Below are positions 8,878-18,736 of a stretch of 18,736 nucleotides of DNA, one piece after another. The position numbers and the translations under genes were made by a program. Source of the stretch: Spartobacteria bacterium (lineage in GTDB: Bacteria; Verrucomicrobiota; Verrucomicrobiia; Chthoniobacterales; Chthoniobacteraceae); NCBI GenBank assembly GCA_025350985.1, contig JANXWU010000477.1, forward strand, positions 1 to 18,736. Direction: 5' to 3'. Position 1 is the first letter of the stretch. Every line of letters begins with the position of its first letter. Under the pieces are notes generated by a model. The model made no database searches. It worked only from the letters and a program-made list of their open reading frames with translations, and had not been told where the DNA came from.

Positions 8878-8982
8878 GCCGGTAGGGATGGCTCTCCGAG
8901 CCGTCCGCCGCGCGTGGCAACTCATTCAGCGTCCGCTTCCAAATTGCGCCCCACGGACGCCTCGGAGAAGGATCCCTACCGA
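8878..8982. repeat. REP pair (BIME-like) downstream of the RAYT gene
   Basis: Two REP units face each other. Unit A (8878-8909) has GTAG at 8882-8885 followed by a hairpin GGATGGCTC-TCC-GAGCCGTCC with one G-T wobble. Unit B (about 8953-8981, inverted) has CTAC at 8976-8979 and a hairpin with three mismatched pairs, so it looks decayed. About 40 bases lie between them, including CGTGGCAACTCATTC (8913-8927). That segment matches the reverse complement of the spacer in the pair at 11795-11900. GTAG at the foot of a hairpin is the arrangement known for REP elements recognised by RAYT transposases. Confidence 0.85.
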
Positions 8983-9021: not shown

Positions 9022-9513
9022 TCACCATGGCCTGTTTTCGGTCACGTAAGGCCAATCCTCTGCGCGCTCGATCAAGCCCATTCGCACGGGATTTTGCCGG
9101 ATGTATTCCGCCTTTTGCGCATAGCTCTCATCGTGCCGCAGTCGATGATCGAAAAAATCTCGCTGCCATTCGACCTTGGCCGTGCGCGCCGTGAATCGTT
9201 TCCAATCCGACACGACTCGCTCCATGTTTTGATCAATCGGAAATCCGAGCAGTGCGTGAACGTGATCAGGCATCAACAAAAACAAATTCGCGTACCATTT
9301 TTCCGTGCCGTGATTGAATCGAACTGCTTCGAGCAAAATGTTCGCGATCTTCGGCTGGCAAAGCTGATTCCTTCCGCGTTGCTGACAATTGATGGTCACG
9401 AAAAAAATCGAGCCGGCGCTCGATTCCGCCGGCGGCGTGTGCCCGAGCTGTTTTCGCTCGGGCAAATCTTTCGCGGATCGAAAAGCGTCGAAGATGTTTT
9501 CTGGTTCGTTCAT
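9022..9513 (-). CDS. REP-associated tyrosine transposase (RAYT, Y1/IS200-like HUH nuclease)
   Basis: 163 aa from ATG 9513. The HUH motif is HVH at residues 84-86 within LMPDHVHALLGF. The likely catalytic tyrosine is Y137 in the stretch EYIRQNPVRMGL, as in other RAYT proteins; Y131 is nearby. Such enzymes nick single-stranded DNA at the foot of REP hairpins beside GTAG and are thought to spread REP elements. The gene is bracketed by REP units that fit this specificity, including identical 32-base copies at 8878-8909 and 9534-9565 in inverted orientation. An upstream in-frame ATG at 9555 would extend the protein by 14 residues, but it lies within a REP unit, so 9513 is preferred. The gene lies between two genes of a vWA cluster on the same strand, so it may be read from that operon. 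Confidence 0.9.
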   Translation of the reverse strand: MNEPENIFDAFRSAKDLPERKQLGHTPPAESSAGSIFFVTINCQQRGRNQLCQPKIANILLEAVRFNHGTEKWYANLFLLMPDHVHALLGFPIDQNMERVVSDWKRFTARTAKVEWQRDFFDHRLRHDESYAQKAEYIRQNPVRMGLIERAEDWPYVTENRPW

Positions 9514-9533
9514 CGGTGATGCAGCCACGGTTG

Positions 9534-9565
9534 GGCGGACGGCTCGGAGAGCCATCCCTACCGGC
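9534..9565. repeat. REP unit upstream of the RAYT gene
   Basis: This is an exact 32-base inverted copy of the unit at 8878-8909, including the same G-T wobble in the stem. CTAC at 9558-9561 is the reverse of GTAG. It fills most of the 54-base gap between the RAYT start (9513) and the stop of the BatA-vWA gene (9568). The pair of identical units brackets the transposase like terminal inverted repeats. Confidence 0.88.
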
Positions 9566-11763: not shown

Positions 11764-11794
11764 CAGGGGAGCGTGCGTTGAGAGATCGAGTCGC

Positions 11795-11900
11795 GCCGGT
11801 AGGGACGCTTCTCCGAAGCGTCCGCGGGGTGTTTTTGGTTCTTCCGAGTTGAATAAGTTGCCACGCACCGCGGACGGCTCGGAGAGCCGTCCCTACCGGC
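11795..11900. repeat. REP pair (BIME-like) between BatA-vWA and DUF58 genes
   Basis: Unit D (11795-11827) has GTAG at 11799-11802 and a perfect hairpin GGACGCTTC-TCC-GAAGCGTCC. Unit E (11868-11900, inverted) has CTAC at 11893-11896 and a perfect hairpin GGACGGCTC-GGA-GAGCCGTCC. The 40-base spacer contains GAATAAGTTGCCACG (11851-11865). Apart from one base, this matches the reverse complement of 8913-8927 in the other pair. The whole element is therefore a diverged inverted copy of 8878-8982. It lies 31 bases upstream of the BatA-vWA start and could affect mRNA stability or expression of that gene. Confidence 0.9.
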
Positions 11901-11947
11901 ACGCAGCGTCGTTTCACCCGGCGAAAAAAGTTGGCGGCGCCTCGTTT

Positions 11948-14253: not shown

Positions 14254-15108
14254 TCAAAACGTCACCACGAAAAGCTGGTCCAGCGCGGCCATCAGTGCCC
14301 ATTTCTGGCCGACAAAAATCAACACGCAGTCATCGACTCTCGCGCCGGCTTGGGCGACGACGGTGCCGCCGGATGCGGTGGATTTGAACTCGAGTGCGGT
14401 CGATCCGGCGACGGAGCGGGCAGTGATTTTCCACGGGCGCGGCGGCGGATTGCGGTCGCCGATGGATTTTTTCAGCGGCGGTAAATTTGGATAATCGGCG
14501 GGGGCGAGCGTGTAGCGCTGCAAGTCGATTTTGGAATAGTTCGCCTTGCCAAGTTTGTAGCTCCAGAGCTTGCCCCACGGGTCGAGCCGCAGCGCATCGG
14601 GGATGTCCTTTGTCACCGCGTCCAGCGACGGTGGGAAATCCACTTTGTCGCCGTAATATTTTCGCAGCACGACATCGATTTGCGTCGCCTCCGCGCGGGC
14701 GAGCCAGAGGCGCGCTCGCTCGCGGATGGTGGCGGCGATCACGTCGTCGCCAGCGAGCGCGGCCAATTTTTTCAAGTCCGCAAGCCAGGCGGATTCGGGG
14801 GCTGCGGAAATGATTTGCAGGAAGACCTTTTGAAAATCGACGGCGGGTTGCAGAGGCGGCGGGAGGCTGGCGGCGTTCGTGGCGAGCGTGCTGAGTTGTT
14901 GCGCCAGCACCGCGGGGTCGCGCGGTGCCTTGAGGTTGGCAGGCCAGACATCAGATGGATTGCCCGCGAGTGATGCCAAGGCCGTTAGGGCCAGGAAGGC
15001 GAACATCGAACACCGAACATCGAACGCCCAACGTCGAAGGACGGAAGCGGTGCGAGGCGAAATACTCTTTCGGTGTTCAGAGTTCGAGGTTCGGAGTTCG
15101 AGATTCAT
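14254..15108 (-). CDS. Exported protein of unknown function with pseudopilin-like segment
   Basis: 284 aa from ATG 15108, supported by GGGAG eight bases upstream. The first ~35 codons are made of a heptamer inverted repeat. A signal-peptide-like segment MFAFLALTALASLAG follows directly at residues 35-49, so an alternative start at ATG 15006 would give a normal signal peptide. The mature part is helical to about residue 150. It then has KYYGDKVDFPPSLDAVTKDI and LRLDPWGKLWSYKLGK (about 150-188). This recalls the C-terminal part of GspG-like major pseudopilins, where a PPSL...DPWG...Y pattern is common. The N-terminal prepilin motif of those proteins is absent, so it is not a pseudopilin itself. 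It lies 50 bases downstream of the MFS gene on the same strand and may be co-transcribed. Function unknown. Confidence 0.72.
   Translation of the reverse strand: MNLELRTSNSEHRKSISPRTASVLRRWAFDVRCSMFAFLALTALASLAGNPSDVWPANLKAPRDPAVLAQQLSTLATNAASLPPPLQPAVDFQKVFLQIISAAPESAWLADLKKLAALAGDDVIAATIRERARLWLARAEATQIDVVLRKYYGDKVDFPPSLDAVTKDIPDALRLDPWGKLWSYKLGKANYSKIDLQRYTLAPADYPNLPPLKKSIGDRNPPPRPWKITARSVAGSTALEFKSTASGGTVVAQAGARVDDCVLIFVGQKWALMAALDQLFVVTF
15001..15108. repeat. Heptamer inverted repeat (GAACNYC type) forming the 5' end of a gene
   Basis: On the plus strand 15001-15024 reads as tandem 7-base units GAACATC, GAACACC, GAACATC. Bases 15069-15092 are its inverted counterpart, with 4 mismatches over 24 bases. 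Further units continue on both sides (to about 15039 and 15108), with 44 bases between the core arms. It coincides with the first 35 codons of the minus-strand gene starting at 15108. The same architecture, with CAAC-type heptamers, occurs at 17934-18041. Confidence 0.85.
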
Positions 15109-15116
15109 TTGAGGAA

Positions 15117-15121
15117 CTCCC
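15117..15121 (-). promoter_or_regulatory. Ribosome binding site for the repeat-initiated gene
   Basis: GGGAG on the minus strand lies eight bases before ATG 15108. It favours a start inside the heptamer repeat over the internal ATG at 15006, so the repeat is probably translated. Confidence 0.55.
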
Positions 15122-15158
15122 AAGTCTGCGGGCTCGCACTGCGCGAGATTTGCCGCCG

Positions 15159-16577
15159 CTACCCCTCCGGCATGGGCCGGCCTTTGGTTTCCGGCAGAAA
15201 CGGCAGCGCGGCGATGCCGACGAGATAAACGAGGCTCATCCAGCAGGCGGCGGAGCGGAAGGCGTCGAGTTTCGCTGCGGTGATCGCAGCTTTGCTCGCG
15301 CCGATTCCCAAGGCGGCGGTCGCGGTGAGCGCGAGCGCGGCCTGAAGTTTCCCCAGCGTGATCGGGCCGGTGGCGGCGATGAAGCGTCCGACGTTGTAGC
15401 AAAAGCTCGTGCCGGTGCTGCGCAAGCGCGTGGGGAAAAGTTCCGGCAGATAAATGGCGAAGCCAGCGAAGAGCGACATCTGGCAGAAGCCCATGATCGG
15501 CGTGAGCACGAAGATGTGCCACGGCTCGGAGAGGAGCTTGAACAGCGCGACGGTGCTCAGGCTCGCGGCGACCGACGCGACGGCGAAGACTGGCTTGCGC
15601 CCGTACACGCGCGCCGCCTTCGTGAACACGAGCATCCCGGCGAACGCGCCGATGTTTTGCATCATCAAATTCACACCGGTCCAGATCAGCTTCATGCCGC
15701 CCTGCTTGTCGGCCGGGACGCCCTGTTGCGTGAGCAGTTTGCCGATCACGTCATTCACCAACTCCGGGCTGAAGAAGCCGATGCCCCAGACGCCGATGAC
15801 GCCAGCCACGCAGAGCATCATCCCGAAGAGCGCGTTCTTCCGCCAACGAGCTTCTCCGAAAAGTGAAACGTAGGAGCCGAAGCGGACGCCGGTGGCGCGG
15901 CCTTCTTCGCGCGCCTTCACCCACTTGTCGGGTTCTTTCAGGCGCATCTGTAAAAAGACACACATGAAGGCGGGCAGCGAGCCGACGAGAAACATCAGTT
16001 TCCACGCGCTGCTCGCGCCGGGTGTCGTGGTTTGATGCCAGCCGATGGCGACAGCGATGAGGCTGGCGGCGACATTGCCGACGGCGGAGAGAGCCTGCAA
16101 GACGCCGAGGGCGCTGGGACGCGAGCGGTCGGGCAATCCATCGGCGACGAGGGCCACGGCGAGACCGAACACGCCGCCGACGCCGAGGCCGGTGATGAAA
16201 CGATAAACGCCGAACTGAAAAACGGTTTGCGACAACGCCGAGAGGCCGGTGAAAACGGAATAGAGCAGCACGGTGAGCGTGAGTGTTTTCGCCCGGCCAA
16301 TGCGATCGCCGACCGCGCCGAAAATCAGGCCGCCCGTCGCCCAGCCCGCGATGAAGACGGCGGTGGCGTTACTGCCGAGTGTCTTGAGCACTTCGTCGGC
16401 GGTGCCCGGTGGCATGAGCGCCTTGATCGCCGGGCCGCGCGCGAGATTGAAAAGCTGCTGGTCGAGGCAGTCGAACAGCCACGCGAGCGAGGCCATGGAG
16501 AAGACGAACCAGTGATAGGGAGTCAGTTCTTGATGCCAACGCGGAGTGGAGGAAGTGACGGGGACGCTGGAGGACAT
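15159..16577 (-). CDS. MFS transporter (sugar/organic-acid symporter-like)
   Basis: 472 aa from ATG 16577, with about 12 hydrophobic segments. The loop between TM2 and TM3 carries the MFS signature GDRIGRAKTL (residues 90-99). The second half has the related YGRKPVFAV, and LPELFPTRLRSTGTS lies before a late membrane helix. The latter is typical of the sugar-porter and aromatic-acid/proton symporter branches of the family. It should sit in the inner membrane and move a small solute with protons. The substrate is not readable from the sequence, though WLFDCLDQQLFN in TM1 is conspicuously polar. A longer reading from 16775 has no membrane-protein character at its start and overlaps the divergent gene, so it is rejected. 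The 284-aa unknown gene follows 50 bases downstream. Confidence 0.9.
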   Translation of the reverse strand: MSSSVPVTSSTPRWHQELTPYHWFVFSMASLAWLFDCLDQQLFNLARGPAIKALMPPGTADEVLKTLGSNATAVFIAGWATGGLIFGAVGDRIGRAKTLTLTVLLYSVFTGLSALSQTVFQFGVYRFITGLGVGGVFGLAVALVADGLPDRSRPSALGVLQALSAVGNVAASLIAVAIGWHQTTTPGASSAWKLMFLVGSLPAFMCVFLQMRLKEPDKWVKAREEGRATGVRFGSYVSLFGEARWRKNALFGMMLCVAGVIGVWGIGFFSPELVNDVIGKLLTQQGVPADKQGGMKLIWTGVNLMMQNIGAFAGMLVFTKAARVYGRKPVFAVASVAASLSTVALFKLLSEPWHIFVLTPIMGFCQMSLFAGFAIYLPELFPTRLRSTGTSFCYNVGRFIAATGPITLGKLQAALALTATAALGIGASKAAITAAKLDAFRSAACWMSLVYLVGIAALPFLPETKGRPMPEG

Positions 16578-16749
16578 GAGGGCGCGAAGTTTGCCTGAGC
16601 GAGGCGGGATTACAAGACCCGAAGCGTGCGGCTTTGGCCAGTTTTGGAAAACCCGGTGGAACCTTTTTTGCCCGCGTGTGTCCAAACTCGCGCCACCGAT
16701 TTGGCGAATCCCTTTTCGCAGACGCGCTCCAATCCTCGCCCTCCATCTT
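16578..16749. promoter_or_regulatory. Divergent intergenic region, MFS transporter and secreted DUF4139-like gene
   Basis: 172 bases between divergent starts (16577 minus, 16750 plus) should contain both promoters. A small palindrome GTTTTGGAAAAC (16641-16652) is the only symmetric site noticed. Clear -35/-10 boxes were not identified. Confidence 0.3.
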
Positions 16750-17931
16750 ATGAAAAACTCGATTCTTCTTTGCACTCTCGCCTGGTTCTTCGCGGCTCAA
16801 TTTGCGGACGCCCGCGTCAAACTCGTGGCGATCCCGGAACGGGCGCGCGTCGTCGTGTCGCTCACCAATCCCGACGCCACGCTGGTCGAGGAGGAGCGCA
16901 TCCTTGTTTTGCAAAAGGGAGTCAACCAGGTCGATTTCGCGTGGGCGGGGGTGAACATCGACGCGACCTCGATTCAGCCGCGCATGATGACCGACCCGGA
17001 CAAGGTGATTGTGCTCAACACGAGCTATCCGCCGAGTGAAAACGCGCTGGTGTGGGAGATCGCCAGCCCGGACGCGCGCGAGCAGCGGGTGCGGATTTCG
17101 TATCTGCTTTCGGGGTTGAATCGCGAGGTCGTTTACAAGGCGGTCGCGGAGTCGAACGAGACGACTTTGACGCTGCGGAACTATTTGCGGCTGCGCAATA
17201 ATTCGGGCGAGGATTTGACCGACGCGGAGCTGAACATCGGCTACGGCGCGACTTTTAAAAAGACCATCGCAAACGAGGAGGTGCTGGAAATGCAAAGCGA
17301 GCGCACGGAGACGCTGCCGATGCAAAAAGTGCTGACGTGGGACGCGGCGCAGCTTCCGTGGGATCCCGAGTATGAGAAGAAAACGGTCGGCATTCCGTTG
17401 AGCTATGTGATCAAGAACGACAAAGCCTCGAAGCTGGGCGAACACACGCTGCTGCCGGGCAAGGCGCGCATTTTCATCAAGACCAAGGAACAGGCCGAGG
17501 AAGGAAAACCGGCGGGCGAGGGGGTGGCGTTCACGGGCGAGGATTGGGCGACGCTGACGCCGGTGGATCGGGAGCTGAAGCTGTTCATCGGGCAGAGCCG
17601 GGACGTGAAAGTCGTGCAGCGGAAGATGAAGGACGACCGGGCGAACATCCGCCGCAACCGCTCCAATCACGACGTGATGTGGGACACGGACGAGGGATTC
17701 AAGATCGAGGTGGAAAACTTCAAGAAAACAGCGGCGAACCTGGTGATCGTCGAGCACATCCCGGGCTACTGGAAGATGGCGCAGTCGTCGGTGCCGTTCG
17801 TGAAAAAGGACGCGTTCACGATCGAGTATCATTTAACGCTGCCGCCGGAATCGACGGGCGCGAAGAAGACGACGGTGACGTTCGATCTGCATCATCTCAA
17901 CGTGCAGGGAAATGAACCCGCGAGTTACTGA
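16750..17931 (+). CDS. Secreted DUF4139-like (mucoidy-inhibitor-A-like) protein
   Basis: 393 aa from ATG 16750. A signal peptide MKNSILLCTLAWFFAAQFADA probably ends at Ala21, giving a mature N-terminus RVKLVAIPERAR. The protein is beta-rich without membrane helices. Key stretches are LVLQKGVNQVDFAWAGVNID, ISYLLSGLNREVVYKA and LRLRNNSGEDLTDAELNIGY. The pattern KGVN..DF.W, then YLLSGL, then NNSGEDL, matches what I recall of DUF4139 / mucoidy-inhibitor-A-like proteins. Function in the family is poorly known. It acts in the periplasm or is surface-exposed. A longer reading from 16546 lacks a signal sequence and is rejected. The next gene is a paralogue whose start lies one base after this stop (TGAGATG), so the two are probably co-translated. 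Confidence 0.82.
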   Translation: MKNSILLCTLAWFFAAQFADARVKLVAIPERARVVVSLTNPDATLVEEERILVLQKGVNQVDFAWAGVNIDATSIQPRMMTDPDKVIVLNTSYPPSENALVWEIASPDAREQRVRISYLLSGLNREVVYKAVAESNETTLTLRNYLRLRNNSGEDLTDAELNIGYGATFKKTIANEEVLEMQSERTETLPMQKVLTWDAAQLPWDPEYEKKTVGIPLSYVIKNDKASKLGEHTLLPGKARIFIKTKEQAEEGKPAGEGVAFTGEDWATLTPVDRELKLFIGQSRDVKVVQRKMKDDRANIRRNRSNHDVMWDTDEGFKIEVENFKKTAANLVIVEHIPGYWKMAQSSVPFVKKDAFTIEYHLTLPPESTGAKKTTVTFDLHHLNVQGNEPASY

Positions 17932-17932
17932 G

Positions 17933-18706
17933 ATGAACTTTCAACTTCCAACGTTCAACGTCCAACTTTCAACGGAAGATGCGTATCCGCGCACGCTTTT
18001 CATTAAACGTTGGATGTTGAAAGTTGAGCGTTGGACGTTGGCCTTTCTCTTCCTCGTTTCCGCCGCGACCGCCTCCGCCCGCATCAACGTCGTCACGCTG
18101 CCTGGCCGCGATTCGACGCAGCTCACGATTTACAATTCCGTCGATCTGACGATGGTTCGCGAGACGCGCAAGCTGACGTTCCGCAAAGGCGTGAACCGGC
18201 TCGAGTTTTCGTGGGCGAACACGCTGATCGATCCGACGTCCGTGGAGTTCCGAGCGGTGACGCACGCGGACGGTGTCGAAGTGCTCGACGCGAGCTTTCC
18301 GCCGCGCGTCGCCAACACGCTGGAGTGGCGGATTCAAAGCGAAATCGCGGGCGAGGTTGAAGTGGAGATTCGCTATTTCACGAGCGGGATTAGTTGGGCG
18401 GCGGATTACGTGGGCGAGGCAGCGCGGAACGAAAAGACGATGGATTTGTCGGGCTACGTGCGGGTGAACAATCACAGCGGCGAGGACTACGAGCACGCGC
18501 AGATTCGGCTGATCGTGGGCACGGTGCGGCTGGTGGAACAGGTGGCGGAACTGGCGCGCCGGGGCGCGAGGGACAAGTCCGGTCCGATGACGCGGACGCT
18601 GTCGGAACTGAGCGACGTAAAAAGGATCTACGGAGTGACATGTATCGACATGCGGGAAAAGCCGAAGGCGAGGGCGAGGAGTTTGCGAAACGCAAGGAGG
18701 TCGTGA
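17933..18706 (+). CDS. Secreted DUF4139-like paralogue, probably frameshifted at the 3' side
   Basis: 257 aa from ATG 17933, one base after the previous stop; ATG 17912 is an alternative in-frame start overlapping that gene. The first ~28 codons are a heptamer inverted repeat (NFQLPTFNVQLST, then KRWMLKVERW). They run into a signal-peptide core WTLAFLFLVSAATASA. The mature part parallels the upstream protein: LTFRKGVNRLEFSWANTLID, IRYFTSGISWAADYVGEA and VRVNNHSGEDYEHAQIRL. The frame stops at 18704-18706, and its last ~25 residues (ending MREKPKARARSLRNARRS) do not look like the family. In another frame, KEVVKESLSEYFLY continues to the window edge and fits the expected continuation. This points to a single-base frameshift, real or a sequencing error, near the AAAAA run at 18619-18623. 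Internal ATG 18014 is a third possible start. Confidence 0.75.
   Translation: MNFQLPTFNVQLSTEDAYPRTLFIKRWMLKVERWTLAFLFLVSAATASARINVVTLPGRDSTQLTIYNSVDLTMVRETRKLTFRKGVNRLEFSWANTLIDPTSVEFRAVTHADGVEVLDASFPPRVANTLEWRIQSEIAGEVEVEIRYFTSGISWAADYVGEAARNEKTMDLSGYVRVNNHSGEDYEHAQIRLIVGTVRLVEQVAELARRGARDKSGPMTRTLSELSDVKRIYGVTCIDMREKPKARARSLRNARRS
17934..18041. repeat. Heptamer inverted repeat (CAACNYY type) forming the 5' end of a gene
   Basis: The left arm contains tandem 7-base units TTTCAAC, TTCCAAC, GTTCAAC, GTCCAAC, TTTCAAC. The core 17948-17974 is inverted at 18015-18041 with about 4 mismatches over 27 bases, separated by 40 bases. It overlaps the first ~35 codons of the plus-strand gene starting at 17933. 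The layout (arms of 24-27 bases, loop of about 40-44) equals that of the repeat at 15001-15108, although the heptamer core differs (CAAC versus GAAC). Confidence 0.85.
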
Positions 18707-18736
18707 AGGAAAGCCTGTCGGAATATTTTCTCTACA
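18619..18736 (+). other. Frameshifted continuation of the DUF4139-like paralogue
   Basis: In the frame with codons at 18691, 18694 and so on, the sequence reads EEFAKRKEVVKESLSEYFLY up to the window end. This matches the style of the family core downstream of the DUF4139 N-terminal half, whereas the annotated frame ends in low-complexity basic residues. A one-base change within the A run at 18619-18623 would join the two frames. The exact shift point is uncertain. Confidence 0.55.

Follow-up and report, generated by a model that had tools for sequence, protein, structure and literature searches.

Two genes in an 18,736-nt stretch of DNA from a Spartobacteria bacterium (contig JANXWU010000477.1 of assembly GCA_025350985.1; the whole stretch is referred to below as the window) begin inside inverted arrays of 7-base units, which raises the question of what these arrays are and how they came to lie at gene starts. 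A window scan placed them at 15000–15107 (element 1) and 17936–18041 (element 2). Both probably belong to a short palindromic mobile element, as non-autonomous copies that lack an open reading frame (ORF); its long form includes a gene of the S23/IVP family. That the element transposes is something we infer from its distribution.

Tandem Repeats Finder (TRF) reported arrays of period 7/14 at 15000–15038, 15075–15107, 17936–17974 and 18007–18041, and a paired search joined arms at 15001–15041/15066–15106 (element 1) and 17942–17974/18008–18040 (element 2). The two methods confirm the heptamer inverted repeats at both gene starts described in the initial annotation, which had given arms of 24–27 bases and centres of 40–44 bases; the measured arms are longer (about 33–41 nt) and the centres shorter (24–36 nt). 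No other paired short-period arrays were found in the window when periods 4–16 were scanned, only period 7 and its double yielding pairs. The predicted RNA folds of both elements are better than those of shuffled sequences (z of −4.4 and −6.1, with 0 of 200 shuffles as good). The GAAC element contains no stop codon in the three forward frames and one over the reverse frames together; the CAAC element contains three forward and four reverse. No known RNA family was matched in Rfam by any of ten sources (the window, six S23 loci of this genome and three loci of relatives).

The same plan recurs elsewhere in this genome. In 48 contigs besides the window (281,796 usable bases; 60 contigs were taken and 12 masked ones dropped), the paired arrays numbered seven at period 7, six at period 14 and 0–3 at each other period, compared with one pair in all over ten replicates of a Markov control; one of the seven period-7 pairs, L202, was judged spurious. 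Arrays of GAACNYC and CAACNYY units, the class under which the repeats had first been described, do recur, but the word varies, GAAC and CAAC being two among the many that one architecture uses, and the unbiased contigs hold the same inverted plan with other words, TTTAGGA, GATTTTC and ATTGCGG among them. With L202 excluded, the centres measure 7–84 nt in the ORF-less elements and 339–384 nt in six long ones. Arm lengths are too widely spread (median 33 nt, mostly 4–5 units) to support the idea of exact five-unit arms matching a pentamer. One perfect CGCTCAA array (L195:1–109) reaches a contig end; the assembly may therefore break at arrays, and the counts given here may be low.

A profile search found six copies of PF05635 (23S_rRNA_IVP, the S23 four-helix-bundle family) over the curated cut-off in this genome, a seventh row being the second piece of a broken copy (C66). 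All six lie in the six long centres, each inside an inverted period-7 array; the gene fills a centre of about 350 nt, and the word of the enclosing array differs from place to place. The S23 search over 57 genomes (this one and 56 relatives) listed 128 matches, from which 95 loci (6 own and 89 of relatives) were examined: every match of 38 bits or more apart from a single one at a contig end, and, below that score, the first piece of C66. The other 32 rows, all weaker, were not used. At 68 of the 95 loci the two 160-nt flanks are joined by an inverted repeat, as they are at none of 547 displaced controls in the same loci, and 67 of the 95 pass when refined gene limits are used. Of 403 other genes, five have flanks that pass (2 of 205 in this genome, one being the RAYT gene of the window, and 3 of 198 in genome G017).

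The architecture and its link with S23 genes extend to many bacterial groups. Among loci from named genomes (the best 80 of at least 566 confirmed), 63 pass the inverted-repeat test, and the same 80 show period 7 at 67 loci and period 8 at four; 15 of 29 top-scoring loci from the phylum also pass (30 were fetched and one short locus dropped). Taken together, these 109 loci gave 1607 displaced controls, of which 6 pass. By our assignment from record titles, the 63 passing named loci belong to Verrucomicrobia, Lentisphaerae and Kiritimatiellaeota, Chloroflexi, Planctomycetes, Deltaproteobacteria, Bacteroidetes, Rhodothermia, Cyanobacteria, Acidobacteria, Ignavibacteria, Armatimonadetes and one genome of the Candidate Phyla Radiation. 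An S23/IVP match is present in 220 of the 288 genomes sampled of this phylum. Two scans of viral contigs confirmed no relatives, and a distant S23 protein occurs in 2 of 50,697 phage records. Plasmid records contained no match to element 1; an S23 relative is found in 23 of 72,556. In Planktothrix plasmids (L452, L453, L454), an S23 gene and heptamer arrays adjoin drmD of the DISARM system.

Word and period follow the S23 lineage. On a tree of 90 S23 domains (five short ones left out), the loci of period 6, five called and two uncalled, form one clade with support of 100/100, and six of the eight period-8 loci fall in one clade together with three of period 7 and one uncalled. The period labels are clustered on the tree, with 0 of 500 shuffles as low for periods 7 and 8 and 1 of 500 for period 6. 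Over 145 cassettes, those with more similar S23 proteins also have more similar arms (Mantel r of 0.43 for pairs below 60% identity, reached in 0 of 2000 permutations) when arms are read on the strand of the S23 gene, versus 0.11 when they are flipped. With groups again assigned from record titles, cross-group pairs at 50–60% S23 identity reach an arm score of at least 16 in 202 of 1077 same-strand comparisons versus 19 of 1077 flipped ones. A core, GATT[GT]NN, was derived from 88 cassettes, shuffled arms being much less informative.

The elements lie either between a stop and a start codon or, in frame, within proteins, and empty sites are found in relatives. Twenty-five paired elements were located in this genome, six of them called inside genes; one of these calls (L177) was set aside as a gene-call error, the element lying by eye upstream of an exbD-like start. 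Of the remaining 19, 16 have a gene end no more than 30 nt away on one side or both, and 11 have one on both. After subtraction of the element, the median spacer is 17 nt in this genome (12 junctions) and 33.5 nt in G017 (28 junctions); length-weighted random insertion predicts 316 and 330 nt, with 0 of 5000 simulations as low. The gene starts used here are those of our own caller, which may be biased towards starts within arms. Elements also occur in frame in housekeeping genes whose names were confirmed by NCBIfam. The alignments of queA, uvrA and uvrC to solved homologues break at the array, close to it in uvrA and uvrC and with a dozen further residues in queA, and the single in-frame arm of dnaG corresponds to a 10-residue gap in 5vaz and, less clearly, in 2au3. 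One in-gene site is common to this genome and G017 (L013:2086–2191 and L439:279–385), and there the words have diverged while the arms are still complementary.

Empty sites were compared at the gene level. An S23 cassette of this genome with a broken S23 gene (L066:1462–1864, the C66 copy) lies between pyrB and pyrC. These two genes are adjacent in 26 of 29 relatives' loci, and none of the 26 has a period-7 segment at the junction; the gap is 0 nt in G035, G341 and G025, the genes overlap in three, and the others have short or long gaps. At L505 and L506, period-8 repeats occupy the junction that holds the period-7 cassette here. Period-8 arrays are likewise seen at relatives' gene junctions in L219 and L220, and L499 (G033) and L496 (G004) have an in-frame heptapeptide repeat of array type (PQSAIRNPQSAI and PQSEIRNPKSEI, respectively) near the pyrC N-terminus. 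The uvrA loop has no array in 14 of 14 relatives readable with the anchor (29 loci examined).

Both window ORFs stay open through the arrays into signal-peptide cores. This agrees with the earlier proposal that the arrays supply start and leader codons, but our coding-potential gene caller prefers the innermost ATGs at 15006 and 18014. Because 7 is a multiple of three plus one, a word without stops leaves every frame open, and the strand ATGTTCG gives an ATG in each of them. The leaders and start codons of the window genes are therefore better read as by-products of insertion. The initial annotation was right that this is a dispersed repeat class at gene boundaries able to supply a start and N-terminal codons, and its statement that the two window proteins are unrelated to each other holds as far as Pfam shows. 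The 17912–18706 protein is a paralogue of its upstream neighbour (16750–17931; 37% identity), and the DUF4139 matches of both are weak and under the curated cut-off. The stop codon of this second gene at 18706 lies inside the partial DUF4139 match, near the contig end (window 18600–18736), and may reflect a frameshift. Best matches of the 14254–15108 protein among relatives are in G009, G013, G023, G034 and G027. In the five homologues read at locus level, the upstream gene differs from that in the window; the junction measures 2 nt in G034 and 7 nt in G027, and G023 and G013 have a short period-8 array at the start junction. What these loci show is that arrays at the start of that gene are lineage-specific; they are not an empty counterpart of the window site. 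Coordinates are listed in Table 1.

Table 1. Features of the two window elements, the genes beside them and the in-frame arrays (positions refer to the window unless a locus is given).
Feature	Coordinates	Strand	Remarks
Element 1, left arm, tandem GAACNYC heptamers	15000..15041		TRF and paired search
Element 1, centre (loop), 24 nt, without S23 gene	15042..15065		Gap between paired arms
Element 1, right arm, inverted heptamers	15066..15107		TRF and paired arm, complementarity score 21
Element 2, left arm, tandem CAACNYY heptamers	17936..17974		4 nt past upstream stop codon (17929–17931)
Element 2, centre (loop)	17975..18006		TRF and paired search
Element 2, right arm, inverted heptamers	18007..18041		Source of ATG at 18014
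Gene with 5' end in element 1, no Pfam family	14254..15108	-	Likely start 15006, or further up in the array
Gene with 5' end in element 2, weak DUF4139	17912..18706	+	Likely start 18014
MFS transporter gene, upstream of element 1	15159..16580	-	About 50 nt from stop codon to element
DUF4139-type paralogue, stop codon abutting element 2	16750..17931	+	Pfam, gene calling
In-frame arrays	dnaG L178:5263-5315; uvrC L192:3366-3507; queA L031:1487-1599; uvrA L051:1502-1601		Conserved housekeeping genes

The arms of the window elements resemble those of particular S23 cassettes. Element 1 matches L145 best (score 22), followed by L149 and L153, with its best own cassette at 12; element 2 matches L153 best (25), followed by L072 (15), with its best own cassette at 10. 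L145, L149 and L153 belong to one S23 clade and, read on the strand of the S23 gene, have GAAC and CAAC words. Among 40 genomes of the family, a 21-base pattern of the window words has 278 matches in G017, 155 in G341, 97 in G035 and 27 in this genome, and at most five in each of the others; an S23 gene of the matching clade is present in G341 and G035. Several results weigh against reading the window arrays as copies dependent on such a partner. A clade-model search of the assembled 88% of this genome found no S23 gene of the matching clade and returned only the six other S23 copies. G017 has the most matches without a gene of this clade, and of the five genomes with such a gene, three (G028, G011, G033) have zero matches, their arms bearing other words. 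The own cassette is the best match for only 7 of 33 array segments of this genome (p = 0.023), some of these segments being doubtful, in a comparison with 68 cassettes of which six are own. The evidence on the partner being mixed, mobilisation in trans is thus a step that we infer with mixed support.

Further points count against a mobile S23 element more generally. The inverted-repeat test failed at 27 of the 95 loci, at 17 of the 80 named ones (again the best 80 of at least 566) and at 14 of the 29 from the phylum. No transposition event was seen, and we know of no catalytic motif in S23 proteins. If junctions are weighted equally, random insertion gives median spacers of 64 nt here and 106 nt in G017, and 335 and 105 of 5000 simulations, respectively, are as low as observed. 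The clustering of period labels on the tree may stem from near copies. Arms placed on random strands still yield an A..T core, so the word analysis alone fixes no strand. Common descent alone could make arms and gene track each other; unconstrained DNA would, however, be expected to be saturated at such protein distances.

The model of an S23 protein of this genome (pLDDT 95.9) has the four-helix fold of the chains of 2rld and 2gsc, with template modelling (TM) scores of 0.76–0.92. Each of these two entries contains five chains, and the title of 2rld reads 'protein with unknown function'. Weaker matches were obtained to Avd (4dwl; TM 0.75/0.84) and to a complex of a diversity-generating retroelement (DGR; 8ub7, TM 0.75/0.82), with Foldseek E-values of 0.05–0.06 and probability 1.00. 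The plan of the element is two inverted arrays, mostly of 4–5 units of 7 bases (6 or 8 in some lineages), round a centre. The S23 protein may bind the hairpin arms, reading word and spacing, and would guide a separate enzyme that copies or inserts the element, acting in trans on the ORF-less copies. Because both S23 entries contain five chains, and in view of the fold matches, we propose that an S23 ring could read successive arm units in the hairpin. Slippage alters the number of units, as in Planktothrix strains, and the arms could stay complementary through template switching. A wider and more tentative reading, possible but short of what we would call probable, is that these elements form a class of selfish DNA across many bacterial groups, in which a period (6, 7 or 8, set by the S23 lineage) rather than a sequence is conserved. 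A ring-forming S23 protein would read about five arm units as RNA or single-stranded DNA and spread the element and its ORF-less copies into junctions and in frame into genes, with Avd as a domesticated or sister branch.

Other explanations of the arrays must be weighed. The strong predicted RNA hairpins and the tight placement between stop and start codons would also suit hairpins with a regulatory role for the host at operon junctions, whether as terminators, attenuators or mRNA stabilisers, with S23 as an RNA-binding regulator encoded beside its own site, and the resemblance of the S23 model to Avd, part of a solved DGR ribonucleoprotein, is consistent with this. Such a role is nevertheless unlikely: the arrays also lie in frame inside dnaG, uvrA, uvrC and queA, their sites are lineage-specific and empty in relatives, and an informal look noticed no shared function among neighbouring genes. 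Alternatively, the arrays could be immobile products of replication slippage and quasi-palindrome template switching at the site itself, with S23 genes merely sitting in some of them. Planktothrix strains do differ in unit number at one site (for example, CCCCAAT runs of 4 and 2 versus 6), and at the L013/L439 site the words differ while the arms stay complementary. As a full account this too is improbable, given that the same word families occur at many places in one genome, that period 7 dominates and follows the S23 lineage, and that such flanks are rare at other genes (5 of 403). Slippage probably shapes the arms, and leaves their dispersal unexplained.

It is very improbable that the repeat, as had been proposed, provides a variable leader by inserting, or being selected, where genes for secreted proteins begin. 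Both window genes and several others here do have hydrophobic N-termini, at 9 of 19 element-adjacent starts versus 82 of 277 other genes (odds ratio 2.1, Fisher p = 0.12); G017, however, shows no excess (8 of 26 rows, representing 25 genes with one counted twice, versus 81 of 214), and for the two genomes pooled the proportions are 17 of 45 and 163 of 491 (p = 0.52). Nor are the elements specific to 5' ends, as they are also found at 3' ends, between divergent genes and within the four genes in which they lie in frame. Least credible is movement by the window's own RAYT (Y1 transposase) family, which a Y1_Tnp gene at 9022–9555 (Pfam) might suggest and which was rejected on the flanks of that gene, where the hairpins (8880–8981 and, further off, 11792–11903) are of the CGGTAGGGA class, another kind without period-7 arrays, while the heptamer arms go with S23 genes. 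This RAYT-like gene has REP-like (repetitive extragenic palindromic) CGGTAGGGA hairpins nearby that are unrelated to the heptamer arrays.

We know of no function for S23/IVP proteins, despite their solved structures. As the payload of period-locked palindromic elements, these common proteins would acquire a candidate role and, in the arms, a candidate ligand. If the mobile-element reading is true, the odd heptapeptide repeats of some predicted proteins would have an explanation, and a little-noticed class of selfish DNA would be added, with a type of element whose arm sequence varies in step with its protein at a constant unit period. The joint element, a heptamer palindrome with an S23 gene, is to our knowledge new; its novelty is provisional, as the literature was not surveyed.

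Parts of this architecture resemble known systems. Rickettsia palindromic elements are short dispersed palindromes found between genes and in frame inside protein genes, and the elements here are likewise multi-copy palindromes that also lie in frame within genes. Compared by description only, they differ in having arms of tandem 7-base units, a word that varies by locus and a long form with an S23 gene. In the REPIN/RAYT system, non-autonomous palindromes depend on a partner protein encoded between such repeats, a likeness that extends to the S23 cassettes; here, however, the partner is a four-helix bundle and not a Y1 transposase, a period rather than one fixed sequence is shared, and the hairpins near the window's RAYT gene are not heptamer repeats flanking it. 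S23/IVP intervening sequences are known in the 23S rRNA of Leptospira and Coxiella, and share with the present elements a PF05635 protein carried in an insertion; here the insertion lies between or inside protein genes, with no Rfam match in the ten sources. Avd of DGRs is alike in fold, whereas the centre of about 350 nt seen here contains no reverse transcriptase, a statement that covers the element flanks read, no systematic DGR search having been made. Finally, the short tandemly repeated repetitive (STRR) sequences of cyanobacteria are tandem heptanucleotide repeats, and by that definition the arrays described here are of the same kind. We know of no description that links STRR sequences with inverted arms and S23 proteins; heptamer-armed S23 cassettes are present in Nostoc and Oscillatoria and, by eye, in Planktothrix.

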